A stretch of 64,000 nucleotides of DNA, taken from Hyphomicrobiales bacterium (GTDB lineage: Bacteria > Pseudomonadota > Alphaproteobacteria > Rhizobiales > Rhizobiaceae). The notes below the pieces were generated by a model, which saw only the letters and a list, made by a program, of their open reading frames with translations, had not been told where the DNA came from and ran no database searches. Made by a program: the position numbers and the translations under genes. Numbering within the stretch: position 1 is the stretch's first letter; the number at the start of each line of letters is the position of its first letter. The DNA lies in assembly GCA_900472175.1 (NCBI GenBank), contig UCHD01000001.1:434001-498000 (forward strand), given 5' to 3'. Shown piece after piece: positions 11,971-14,432 of this stretch.

Positions 11971-11998
11971 GTGCTAGTGGACAATAGAATGCTAGCAT
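11971..11998 (+). promoter_or_regulatory. Candidate HicAB operator
   Basis: TGCTAG occurs at 11972-11977 and again at 11990-11995, exactly 18 bp apart. The second copy lies in a perfect palindrome ATGCTAGCAT (11989-11998) that overlaps the first two bases of the hicA start codon. Binding of the HicB antitoxin here would block translation-proximal transcription, fitting autoregulation of toxin-antitoxin operons. Confidence 0.5.
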
Positions 11999-12251
11999 GA
12001 ACAGCAAGCAGAGGAAAACGCTTGCCGCGATCTTCAAGGAGCCTGTGTCCGGAACGATCGATTGGGCTGATATCGAAAGCCTGCTTTTGGCGGCTGGGTG
12101 TACACTGATCGAAGGTAACGGTTCGCGCGTCAGGTTTTCTTTCGCAAACGAGGTGGAGAGCTTCCATCGTCCGCATCCGGCGAAAGAAGCAAAGCGCTAT
12201 CAGGTTCGGGCGGCGAGGGACTTTCTGCTGCGTCTAGGAGTAAGACCATGA
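11997..12251 (+). CDS. hicA: HicA-family toxin
   Basis: An 84-residue basic protein of the HicA mRNA interferase family: WADIESLLLAAGCTLIEGNGSRVRFSF, then HRPHPAKE and a C-terminal helix. Classical HicA has GSH in the central strand, where the His is catalytic. Here the position reads GSR, as in a subgroup I recall from alphaproteobacteria; the nearby HRPH could supply the His. The protein is expected to cleave mRNA and stop translation when free of HicB. Its stop codon overlaps the hicB start by 4 bp (ATGA), so the two are translationally coupled. Confidence 0.85.
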   Translation: MNSKQRKTLAAIFKEPVSGTIDWADIESLLLAAGCTLIEGNGSRVRFSFANEVESFHRPHPAKEAKRYQVRAARDFLLRLGVRP

Positions 12252-12589
12252 ACAGCATGTCCTACAAGGGTTACGCAGCGCGGATCGATTACGATGCGGA
12301 AGACGAGATCTTTTTCGGCCGGATCGCAGGCATTACCGACGGTGTCGGTTTTCATGCTGATACGGTTGCCGATCTGAAGGCGGCGTTCCACGAGGCGGTC
12401 GACGACTATATCGAAACCTGCGCGAAGATCGGCAAGGATCCGCAAAAATCCTATTCCGGCAAGATGATGTTCCGTGTCGATCCGGATGTGCATGCCCAAG
12501 CCGCTAAGGCGGCAGAACTGTCGGGCAAGAGCCTCAACCAATGGGCAGCCGAAGTGCTGGCTAAAGCAGCGGCTGCAAAAGCGGCATAA
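12248..12589 (+). CDS. hicB: HicB-family antitoxin
   Basis: A 113-residue antitoxin. The N-terminal part (YAARIDYDAEDEIFFGRIAGITDGVGFHADTVADLKAAFHEAVDDYI) is the partly degraded RNase H-like HicB fold that binds the toxin. The C-terminal part (FRVDPDVHAQAAKAAELSGKSLNQWAAEVL) is a ribbon-helix-helix DNA-binding domain. The start overlaps the hicA stop. The TGCTAG repeats ahead of hicA are the likely binding site. The pair appears intact. Confidence 0.9.
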   Translation: MNSMSYKGYAARIDYDAEDEIFFGRIAGITDGVGFHADTVADLKAAFHEAVDDYIETCAKIGKDPQKSYSGKMMFRVDPDVHAQAAKAAELSGKSLNQWAAEVLAKAAAAKAA

Positions 12590-12674: not shown

Positions 12675-13172
12675 TCAGGCGAGGGTCTGCAGATAACGCA
12701 TGCCGGTCACCGGACCGGGGGTGAAGTTTTCCGATTCATAGAAGCGGTGCGCCTGGAAATTGCCGGTGGCGGCACTGACCGAGAGATAGGTGGCGCCGGC
12801 CATGCGGGCCTGCTCGCGGGCCTTGGCGACCAGATGGCGGCCGATGCCGGTGCCGCGATGGGCGGGGCGGACATAGAGATGGTGCAGTTCCATGCCGCGC
12901 ACACCCTGCTGGGCGCGGTAGAGTGGCACGAGAATGGCGTAGCCGATCAGTTCGCCGGCGGCCTCGGCGACCAGCGCCGTGATCCAGGGCATGCGGCCGA
13001 ACAAGTCGCGCTCGAGATTTTCCGGGGTGACGGCAGCGGCATCGCCATGATGGGCGGCAAGCTCGGTGATCAGTTCGCGCAGGGCAGGCAGGTCGCGCTG
13101 CTTGGCGGTACGGATGGTCACCATCGGCGCGCGCGTGGCGGGATGGAGTGTCGGGGTGGCGGTCTGCAGCAT
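12675..13172 (-). CDS. GNAT-family N-acetyltransferase behind an attenuator
   Basis: A 165-residue GNAT acetyltransferase. The acetyl-CoA pyrophosphate loop is RPAHRGTGIGRHL (about residues 102-114), preceded by the ELHHLYV strand and followed by the SVSAATGNFQAHRFYES segment typical of this fold. The overall pattern is close to small-molecule acetyltransferases of the diamine/amino-acid type; the acceptor is unknown. The ATG at 13172 has an AAGGAA ribosome site. Directly upstream lie a terminator (13214-13241) and a 16-codon leader peptide with Trp-Tyr-Phe codons, suggesting that expression rises when aromatic aminoacyl-tRNAs are short. Confidence 0.88.
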   Translation of the reverse strand: MLQTATPTLHPATRAPMVTIRTAKQRDLPALRELITELAAHHGDAAAVTPENLERDLFGRMPWITALVAEAAGELIGYAILVPLYRAQQGVRGMELHHLYVRPAHRGTGIGRHLVAKAREQARMAGATYLSVSAATGNFQAHRFYESENFTPGPVTGMRYLQTLA

Positions 13173-13213
13173 TTCAAGGTTCCTTATGGCTTTTGCGCCA
13201 TCAGGTGCCGTCC

Positions 13214-13241
13214 AAAAACAAAAGCCGCCTGATGGCGGCTT
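13214..13241 (-). terminator. Attenuator terminator ahead of the GNAT gene
   Basis: On the minus strand, AAGCCGCC-ATCA-GGCGGCTT forms an 8-bp stem with a 4-base loop, followed by TTGTTTTT. This is a textbook intrinsic terminator placed about 40 bases before the GNAT start codon, in the leader. The upstream segment GTGCGGCT (complement of 13259-13266) can pair with the 5' arm over six bases and act as antiterminator. Confidence 0.85.
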
Positions 13242-13258
13242 GTTGAACGAAATCAGAC

Positions 13259-13266
13259 AGCCGCAC
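13259..13266 (-). promoter_or_regulatory. Candidate antiterminator arm
   Basis: GTGCGGCT on the minus strand immediately follows the leader-peptide stop codon. Its GCGGCT can pair with AGCCGC in the 5' arm of the terminator. A ribosome finishing the leader would cover it, while one stalled at the Trp-Tyr-Phe codons would leave it free. Confidence 0.5.
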
Positions 13267-13317
13267 CTATGGGAGCAGCGTAAAATACCAACGGGCGATG
13301 TTCGCGGTTCTGATCAT
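13267..13317 (-). CDS. Attenuator leader peptide with Trp-Tyr-Phe codons
   Basis: A 16-residue ORF, MIRTANIARWYFTLLP, ending in TAG one base before the antiterminator arm. Its codons 10-12 are TGG TAT TTT, so translation speed would report the charging of tRNA-Trp, tRNA-Tyr and tRNA-Phe. No Shine-Dalgarno sequence lies just before the ATG. A TTGACA element at 13347-13352 with a poor -10 (GACATT) would place the transcript start at or near the ATG, so the message may be leaderless. Leaderless translation is known for trpL in Sinorhizobium meliloti. The reading as an attenuation peptide is inference from arrangement. Confidence 0.7.
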   Translation of the reverse strand: MIRTANIARWYFTLLP

Positions 13318-13324
13318 GGCGGGC

Positions 13325-13352
13325 AATGTCGCCTTTTCCAAAGAAATGTCAA
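13325..13352 (-). promoter_or_regulatory. Candidate promoter for the leader and GNAT gene
   Basis: On the minus strand a perfect TTGACA (-35) at 13352-13347 is followed after 16 bp by GACATT as a weak -10. Transcription would begin about at 13317, the A of the leader-peptide ATG. Confidence 0.5.
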
Positions 13353-13547
13353 CGGGAATTCTTGGTGCTGTTAATTTATGCGGCTGAAACAAGATTCTGA
13401 ACAGCCATGTTTCCGGCCAAGACCGGCCACATTCGCTGCCTACGCATTATCCCCAGCGTGCAGCATGTGGTTGAGTTGTTGCTAATATTATCTATTGCGA
13501 TCAACGTGTTGCGCCGCAGCGCCGTCATCAAAGGGAGAACCCATCGC

Positions 13548-14432
13548 ATGTCGTTCACGTTCAATCGCCGCTCGTTCATCATCGGCTCCGGCCTGCTTCT
13601 GCCAACGGTCGGCTTTGCGCCGAATCTGGTCTTCGCCGCCGCCGATGACATCGAAAAGCAGCTGGCGGCGCTGGAAAAGCGCACCGGTGGCCGTCTTGGC
13701 GTCTATGTCCTCGATACGAAAACCAAGGTGACGTTCGCCCATCGGCCGGACGAGCGCTTTGCCATGTGCTCGACCTTCAAGGCGCTGGCGGCGGCTTTCG
13801 TGCTGGCGCGCGTCGACAAGGGCGAGGAAAAGCTCGACCGGCGGATACCGATTTCGAAGAAGCACCTTCTCTCCTATTCGCCGGTGGTTGAGAAACATGT
13901 CGGCAGCGGCATGACGGTGGGTGAACTCTGCGCCGCCACCGTCACGTATAGCGACAATGCCGCCGGAAACCTGCTCTTGGCGAGTTTCGGTGGTCCGAAG
14001 GGCTTGACGGACTGGCTGCGCTCGGTCGGCGACGAAACGACCCGCCTCGACCGCATTGAACCGGAACTCAACGAAGCGAAAATCGGCGATCCGCGCGACA
14101 CGACGTCGCCGAAGGCGATGACGGAAACGCTGGGCAAGCTGTTGCTGGAAGACGTTCTTTCACCCGCATCGCGCGATCAGTTTTCCGCCTGGCTCGTCGC
14201 CAATACGACCGGCGACCGGCGCCTGCGGGCAGGGCTTCCAAAAGGCTGGATCATCGGCGAAAAGACCGGCACCAGCGGCCGCGGCGAAGCCGGCGACATC
14301 GGCTTCATGCGTCCTGCCGAAGGACATACGATCCTTGCCTCGGTCTATATTGCCGAGGGCAAGAAGAAGACCAAGGAGCTTGAGCCGGTGTTTGCCGAGG
14401 TGGGCAAGCTGATCGCCGGGATGGTCGGTTAA
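13548..14432 (+). CDS. Class A beta-lactamase, Tat-exported
   Basis: A 294-residue serine beta-lactamase with all class A motifs: STFK (active-site Ser and Lys), SDN in TYSDNAAGNLLL, the omega-loop EPELNEA with the general-base Glu, and KTGTSGRGEAGD. The N-terminus has a twin-arginine motif (FNRRSFIIGSGLLL), so export by the Tat pathway to the periplasm is likely. It hydrolyses penicillins and perhaps cephalosporins; the spectrum cannot be inferred. The start at 13548 has an AAGGGAGAA ribosome site; a longer in-frame version from 13407 would bury the signal peptide. No ampR-like regulator is adjacent, so it is probably a resident chromosomal gene. Confidence 0.93.
   Translation: MSFTFNRRSFIIGSGLLLPTVGFAPNLVFAAADDIEKQLAALEKRTGGRLGVYVLDTKTKVTFAHRPDERFAMCSTFKALAAAFVLARVDKGEEKLDRRIPISKKHLLSYSPVVEKHVGSGMTVGELCAATVTYSDNAAGNLLLASFGGPKGLTDWLRSVGDETTRLDRIEPELNEAKIGDPRDTTSPKAMTETLGKLLLEDVLSPASRDQFSAWLVANTTGDRRLRAGLPKGWIIGEKTGTSGRGEAGDIGFMRPAEGHTILASVYIAEGKKKTKELEPVFAEVGKLIAGMVG

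Follow-up and report, generated by a model that had tools for sequence, protein, structure and literature searches.

What does a leader peptide carrying adjacent Trp, Tyr and Phe codons control when the gene behind it encodes a GNAT-family acetyltransferase? This question is raised by a short minus-strand locus in the 64,000-nucleotide stretch of DNA analyzed here, hereafter called the window. Ribosome-mediated attenuation is in itself a known form of control; what is new in this locus is the set of codons predicted to be sensed, the target gene, and a second lock built on a shared RNA strand. Our main conclusion, which rests on sequence comparison and to which we assign a probability of roughly 0.8, is that the locus holds a ribosome-mediated attenuator in which Trp, Tyr and Phe are sensed jointly and the GNAT gene is controlled twice, in transcription and in translation.

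Layout of the element

The features of the element are collected in Table 1. Re-checking the minus-strand sequence recovered everything that the initial annotation had reported of the TTGACA box, the 16-residue leader with TGG TAT TTT at codons 10 to 12, and the terminator; the GNAT gene, said to start about 40 bases past the terminator, has its start codon 41 nt 3' of the T-run. One position had to be corrected: strand 2 does not lie one base past the leader stop codon but immediately adjoins it. A scan for sigma-70 promoters gave no hit at the leader, and the hexamer at the -10 place of the window is poor (GACATT), the -10 being weakly conserved across elements.

Table 1. Features of the proposed GNAT attenuator in the window
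Feature	Position	Strand	Basis
-35 element TTGACA	13352-13347	minus	sequence; 35 nt 5' of leader ATG
Leader ORF MIRTANIARWYFTLLP-stop, 16 codons	ATG 13317 to TAG 13267	minus	sequence and conservation
Regulatory codons TGG TAT TTT (Trp, Tyr, Phe), leader codons 10-12	13290-13282	minus	codon conservation
Strand 2 GTGCGGCT (antiterminator strand)	13266-13259	minus	2:3 pairing
Terminator hairpin 3:4, AAGCCGCC-ATCA-GGCGGCTT	13241-13222	minus	sequence, terminator scan
Terminator T-run TTGTTTTT	13221-13214	minus	sequence
Strand 3 with the terminator loop CGCCATCAGG, pairing with strand 5b	13237-13228	minus	3:5 covariation
Strand 5 GGCACCTGATGGCG; 5b pairs with 3 plus loop, 5a with Shine-Dalgarno region	13209-13196	minus	both pairings covary
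Strand 6, GNAT Shine-Dalgarno region GCCATAAGGAACC, in hairpin 5:6	13190-13178	minus	97-nt and 70-nt folds, trpE control
GNAT-family acetyltransferase gene, 165 aa	13172-12675	minus	Pfam PF00583 (Acetyltransf_1), E=4e-17

Conservation before orthologous GNAT genes

Orthologues of the GNAT gene (57-100% identity) were present in 29 of the 61 genomes searched, with 26 of 26 in the genus and 3 of 11 others in the family; the remaining GNAT matches, among those listed, did not exceed 39% identity. The initial annotation had proposed a search of rhizobial genomes for leader, terminator and GNAT in the same order, and this order was found at all 29 orthologous loci, each with a TTGACA 34-36 nt 5' of the leader ATG. 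It was found again, with Trp, Tyr and Phe codons in the leader, in a scan of named genomes, at each of the 80 GNAT loci retained as the best among 402 relatives; these lie in Rhizobium, Pararhizobium, Sinorhizobium (including Sinorhizobium meliloti), Ensifer, Agrobacterium, Neorhizobium, Xaviernesmea and others. Judged by the named loci that match it most closely, the window would belong to the Pararhizobium / Rhizobium giardinii group. Both sets were collected via the GNAT gene and not via the leader; the scan of the 80 loci accepted a leader only if it had at least two aromatic residues, and none was missed.

A covariance model built from 21 elements (R1) matched 112 of 394 genomes of the family at E <= 0.1, and 100 of the 394, from 22 of 109 genera, at E <= 2.5e-7. 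Forty loci were fetched from the R1 matches: 29 lie before GNAT, seven are of a Tyr-codon type described below, and four are false (L097, L107, L111, L112). A strict DNA pattern was too narrow, matching only 13 of 297 family genomes. The counts that follow refer, unless stated otherwise, to 86 elements, 79 distinct ones before GNAT and seven of the tyrS type, identical elements being counted once; besides the four false matches, a locus before a non-orthologous GNAT of 32% identity (L030) was left out.

A TTGACA box with at least five of six bases is present in 79 of the 86 elements, that is, in all 79 linked to GNAT and in none of the seven of the tyrS type, and its spacing to the leader is 34-36 nt in 75 of the 79. 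In 85 of the 86 elements, nothing resembling a Shine-Dalgarno (SD) sequence lies ahead of the leader ATG. The start is probably leaderless, with which the missing SD agrees, although it is no proof.

Codon placement, antiterminator and terminator

Loss of the aromatic codons or of the terminator among homologs had been named beforehand as what would refute an attenuator, and both are conserved: leader and terminator are in place at the 80 loci just mentioned, and Trp, Tyr and Phe all occur within the last nine codons of 78 of the 79 distinct GNAT leaders, which are 16-17 codons long. Tyr and Phe occur in all 79; the sole leader lacking Trp (L105) reads RYFTLFR. In 79 of 79 leaders the first aromatic codon lies 6-8 codons ahead of the stop codon and the CGG of strand 2 begins 0-4 nt past it (3-4 nt in 73 of 79). 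Given the usual ribosome footprint, a ribosome at the stop codon would therefore cover strand 2, and one at the Trp, Tyr or Phe codon would not.

The antiterminator pairing 2:3 is present in 85 of the 86 elements, with a median energy close to that of the terminator hairpin 3:4 (-14.3 versus -15.1 kcal/mol), and the two structures are mutually exclusive as computed. Covariation in the hairpin had been suggested as a check by the initial annotation; in an alignment of 21 sequences (A2), the 3:4 hairpin is 100% paired, but it is nearly invariant. Leader codons, competition between 2:3 and 3:4, and placement of the stop codon all agree, and at the level of sequence the assignment of the element to the trp/his-type ribosome-mediated attenuators is well supported.

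A further pairing appears in a 95-nt fold, in which the first bases of the leader, GAUCAGA (13315-13309, minus strand), pair with UCUGAUU (13257-13251) between strands 2 and 3; this could possibly be a protector state while the leader is untranslated.

A probable second lock on the GNAT Shine-Dalgarno

Control of translation was absent from the initial annotation. The 3' part of strand 5 is complementary to terminator arm 3 and the loop, and its 5' part to the SD region of GNAT. Comparison of the sequences supports a second, translational lock in which strand 5 would have two alternative partners, the terminator arm with its loop (3:5) and the SD region (5:6).

On A2, 97.1% of the cells of the 3:5 pairing are paired and the covariation score is 0.204, each value being reached by none of 500 shuffles; four pairs show changes in both partners, a number that 5 of 500 shuffles attain, and slid versions of the pairing are at most 51% paired. 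Exchanging partners between elements gave the same picture. For 3:5, the energy with the own partner was -20.28 against -16.47 (sd 0.64) over 16 loop classes (0 of 20,000 permutations), although 5 of these classes pair less strongly with their own partner than, on average, with those of the others; for 5:6, it was -9.41 against -6.89 (sd 0.30) over 49 classes (0 of 20,000). When a single element was taken from each of 23 genera and permuted 50,000 times, the values were -20.56 versus -17.07 for 3:5 and -9.53 versus -6.98 for 5:6, neither reached by any permutation, while the control pairings gave nothing (3-6, 6,636 of 50,000; 5a-spacer, 44,130 of 50,000). The own partner is the best in only 4 of the 23 genera for 3:5 and in 6 for 5:6. 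Counting 5:6 changes on A1, a mostly genus-level alignment, was uninformative. Weak 3:5 pairings were seen in L099, L105 and L113, and with -5.6 (-13.8 for the local fold) the window has itself a 5:6 duplex less stable than the majority.

In 80 of the 86 elements, three or more SD nucleotides are paired when the sequence is folded locally. Under nearly the same rule this holds for 1 of 30 trpE attenuators, a comparison with few independent cases since 26 of the 30 leaders come from one genus, the SD being unrecognised in one.

How would the two levels act together? With charged tRNAs, the ribosome would reach the stop codon and mask strand 2, 3:4 would form and transcription would stop; transcripts that leak through would retain 3:4, and strand 5 would shut on the SD. 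If, instead, one of the aromatic tRNAs lacks its amino acid, the ribosome would stall at the Trp, Tyr or Phe codon, 2:3 would form and RNA polymerase would continue. The terminator loop would then be exposed, strand 5 would take strand 3 instead of the SD, and the SD of the emerging GNAT message would be open. With 2:3 formed, the loop and the first bases of arm 4 are predicted to be single-stranded and could offer strand 5 a toehold; with 3:4 formed, they would be enclosed in a 4-nt loop. As a stall could occur at each of the three codons, a block of the shikimate route or the lack of a single amino acid should both elicit the response.

Computed barriers agree with this direction, the median from 2:3 to 3:5 being 4.6 kcal/mol and that from 3:4 to 3:5 being 19.3, with the former lower in 86 of 86 elements. 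Equilibrium energies favor the closed lock (medians -30.8 for 2:3 with 5:6 and -31.1 for 3:4 with 5:6, versus -17.1 for 3:5), and the computed barrier to re-closure from 3:5 has a median of only 3.9 kcal/mol to 2:3 with 5:6, that to 3:4 with 5:6 being 17.9. Moreover, folds of the window RNA with a ribosome masked in gave the same SD pairing at every ribosome position, even with 3:4 forbidden. The open state would thus need kinetics or fast ribosome loading, in other words a race.

These energies, which alone leave the SD closed, are what keeps alive a simpler explanation, namely that the Trp, Tyr and Phe codons govern transcription attenuation only and that the SD hairpin and 3:5 serve mRNA stability or processing outside the switch. 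The trpE attenuators of the same group, which do without such a lock, point the same way. We regard this explanation as possible but doubtful: the SD is paired in nearly all elements, covariation is seen for 3:5 as well as for 5:6, which have strand 5 in common, and since strand 5 is made only after polymerase has left the T-run, 3:5 would come too late to affect that termination event. Access to the SD is the likely purpose of 3:5.

Permuted codons and Tyr-codon relatives

The order of the aromatic codons differs between genera and the set is retained (RWYFTLLP, ATYFWLFR, CSYFWAYL, WFYYANLP). In seven genomes, second elements were found with leaders reading IYYATSP or similar, with two Tyr codons and no Trp. 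Six of the seven precede the gene of tyrosyl-tRNA synthetase (tyrS); the seventh (L078, 418-567) has no tyrS within the 2 kb retrieved behind it. The L078 element has a Tyr-type leader, a terminator and an SD hairpin, and the reading frame behind it stops after 15 codons.

Relatives also exist outside the family. An order-wide search with model R2 matched 118 of 397 genomes at E <= 0.01, many of the matches listed spanning terminator positions only. Seventeen R2 loci were read: nine lie before tyrS, three before the prephenate dehydrogenase gene (tyrA), one before trpE in the window's own genome, and four were unusable, L132 being decayed and L134, L135 and L141 not being leaders. Outside the family, leaders before tyrS read YYATLP, FVYFYYVTD or VYYYAPD and those before tyrA TYYRPLT, SYYRLSS or SYYRTNP, all lacking Trp. 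Leaders of tyrS or tyrA thus have Tyr codons, two or three of them, where Trp is missing, a codon swap that matches the gene, which in these relatives serves the amino acid presumably sensed.

These leaders, found before tyrS or tyrA in other families of Hyphomicrobiales and before tyrS in a few Rhizobiaceae, are cross-detected with the GNAT element by covariance models; a model built from 14 tyr-type leaders only (R3) picks up the window element at E=1.9e-10. They share with it the start, strand 2, the terminator and 3:5, and the SD hairpin is present in seven of seven tyrS-type elements of the 86 and in most of 12 further tyr leaders, no clear one being seen in the tyrA leaders L127 and L131. 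They differ in having YY, YYY or YFYY in place of Trp, Tyr and Phe, and in serving Tyr metabolism. Two variants may be recorded here. A long form of the tyrS leader (FVYFYYVTDIPAAA and similar; L128-L130, L133, L136, L143, L258-L261) has Tyr and Phe and no Trp, and its reading frame continues into a GGCGGCTGCG stretch before the stop codon. In addition, L132 (L263, genome G581) is a decayed tyr-type leader, with no leader start and no recognised gene behind it.

Permuted codon order and Tyr-codon relatives before tyrS and tyrA strengthen the reading of the element as an aromatic attenuator, an idea already present in the initial annotation. They also bear on a different sensor. As in arrest-peptide leaders such as TnaC and erm, and given that some GNATs are resistance enzymes, one could imagine a leader peptide that stalls the ribosome together with an antibiotic or a metabolite, the aromatic residues being part of the arrest motif. 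Within the window's genus this would fit, as RWYFTLL is retained in 26 of 26 leaders. Across genera, however, no fixed arrest residues were found among homologs, aromatic order and the residues that follow both varying (WYFTLLP, YFWLFR, YFWAYL, WFYYANLP), and the related tyr leaders retain only Tyr, or Tyr and Phe, codons. Since the codons track the gene, they fit sensing of tRNA and not a fixed arrest peptide, which we consider unlikely.

Comparison with known attenuators

None of 4,227 Rfam families, T-box models included, matched anywhere in the window at gathering score, and a permissive search of the GNAT element returned sub-threshold matches only. Phe_leader (RF01859) scored 14.5 bits against a gathering score of 55, and RcsR1 (RF02552), which we take to be rnTrpL, scored 11.9 bits and on the other strand only. 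The trpE attenuator of the same genome, MTNARNIAIWWWVR before the anthranilate synthase gene (L147, 1501-1658; L228), is by contrast an RcsR1 at 95.9 bits (gathering score 60), and model R2 finds it at only E=1.97.

Among established systems, the TRAP-controlled trp leader of Bacillus subtilis also acts twice, terminating transcription and, in read-through RNA, hiding the SD of trpE; there Trp is sensed by a protein, and not by a ribosome on a leader. The closest relative in design is trpL/rnTrpL of trpE(G) in Sinorhizobium and relatives, which shares with the GNAT element regulatory codons, competition of 2:3 with 3:4 and a GC-rich terminator, as well as a leaderless short leader, described for S. 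meliloti (PMC7298713). It differs in having no regulatory codons but Trp, in its biosynthetic target and in its SD, at least three nucleotides of which are paired in 1 of 30 trpE loci. The aroR leader of aroF in Corynebacterium glutamicum also mixes aromatic codons (Phe-Tyr-Phe); it belongs to an actinobacterium, its target is a DAHP synthase, the part of the source drawn on mentions no Trp codon, and Tyr availability is there reported as without effect (PMC11802643). In orf34-speF of Salmonella, translation of a leader ORF likewise affects termination as well as a structure hiding the ribosome binding site, but termination is Rho-dependent, the codons are for Arg, translation opens the binding site, and no strand shared between terminator and SD is described in the sections consulted (PMC6386406). 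Finally, uORFC-8-2 before cysS in Rhodobacterales is an alphaproteobacterial ribosome-mediated attenuator of a tRNA synthetase, with Cys codons, in another order and before another gene, an SD lock not being mentioned in the excerpt cited (PMC8632094). Among the literature matches listed, we recognised no GNAT, tyrS or tyrA leader of such a kind in rhizobia, and the words 'acetyltransferase' and 'GNAT' are absent from the main text of an S. meliloti ribosome profiling paper.

The rnTrpL precedent suggests another role. In S. meliloti this RNA is leaderless and acts in trans (PMC7298713, PMC10117765), and the terminated GNAT leader RNA might likewise be mainly a trans-acting small RNA or a source of peptide, in the manner of rnTrpL and peTrpL, with read-through into GNAT being incidental. 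The strength of the terminator would suit such a role. We nevertheless find it very unlikely, as the element stands directly before the same GNAT at each of the 80 loci kept out of 402, and covariation in cis joins strand 5 to the SD hairpin. As for a small ORF and a terminator that came together by chance, shuffles of the 7-kb region lead one to expect 6.9 terminator-like sites and 7 are present, no excess, so that the element taken alone is within chance, but the comparative data already refute this, conservation and covariation leaving it next to no probability and conservation marking the element as real.

Several consequences follow if an attenuator with two locks is the correct reading. 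The covariation would describe a ribosome-mediated attenuator in which a shared strand couples termination to SD access, with codon-swapped relatives before tyrS and tyrA. A conserved rhizobial and agrobacterial acetyltransferase would be tied to the supply of aromatic amino acids, which offers a route to its substrate. The presence of the element in S. meliloti, a species in which such RNAs and peptides of attenuators are already under study, makes tests practical.

The GNAT enzyme and neighboring genes

By sequence and fold, the nearest solved relatives of the GNAT are thialysine/diamine acetyltransferases and unnamed ones, the first two matches by fold having 30-32% identity; the structure model has a mean pLDDT of 75, with residues 134-158 under 50. 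No NCBIfam equivalog cut-off was reached, all matches being far under it; the best were the cyclophane-RiPP acetyltransferase HaaN, followed by aminoalkylphosphonate, RimI and arsinothricin acetyltransferases. Foldseek and sequence comparison named no substrate, and the GNAT is not known to have any link to aromatics.

Joint sensing of Trp, Tyr and Phe points to a block of their common route, hence our guess that the GNAT acts against an amino-acid-like inhibitor. A broader picture is more tentative: the element would be a strand-relay switch, in which a single stall at the Trp, Tyr or Phe codons would set the terminator first and the SD lock next, by toehold exchange through the terminator loop, keeping leaked transcripts silent. 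It would belong to a codon-swappable family of the Hyphomicrobiales, with Tyr codons for tyrS and tyrA and all three aromatics for this GNAT. The GNAT itself would be called for under a block of the entire aromatic route; at a guess, it might acetylate an inhibitor that resembles an amino acid and hits the shikimate pathway or the tRNA synthetases for aromatic amino acids.

Two ideas about the neighborhood were dropped. A GNAT toxin acting on aminoacyl-tRNA would be expected with an antitoxin, and no recognisable one adjoins on the same strand, hicA/hicB being convergent; a link to the neighboring beta-lactamase seems improbable as that gene is divergent. The beta-lactamase gene (13407-14432, plus strand), divergent from the GNAT leader, passes the NCBIfam class A equivalog cut-off, and its nearest specific families are PAD and BKC/GPC, under their cut-offs. 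Just 3' of GNAT and convergent with it lies a HicA-HicB-like toxin-antitoxin pair (11997-12589, plus strand).
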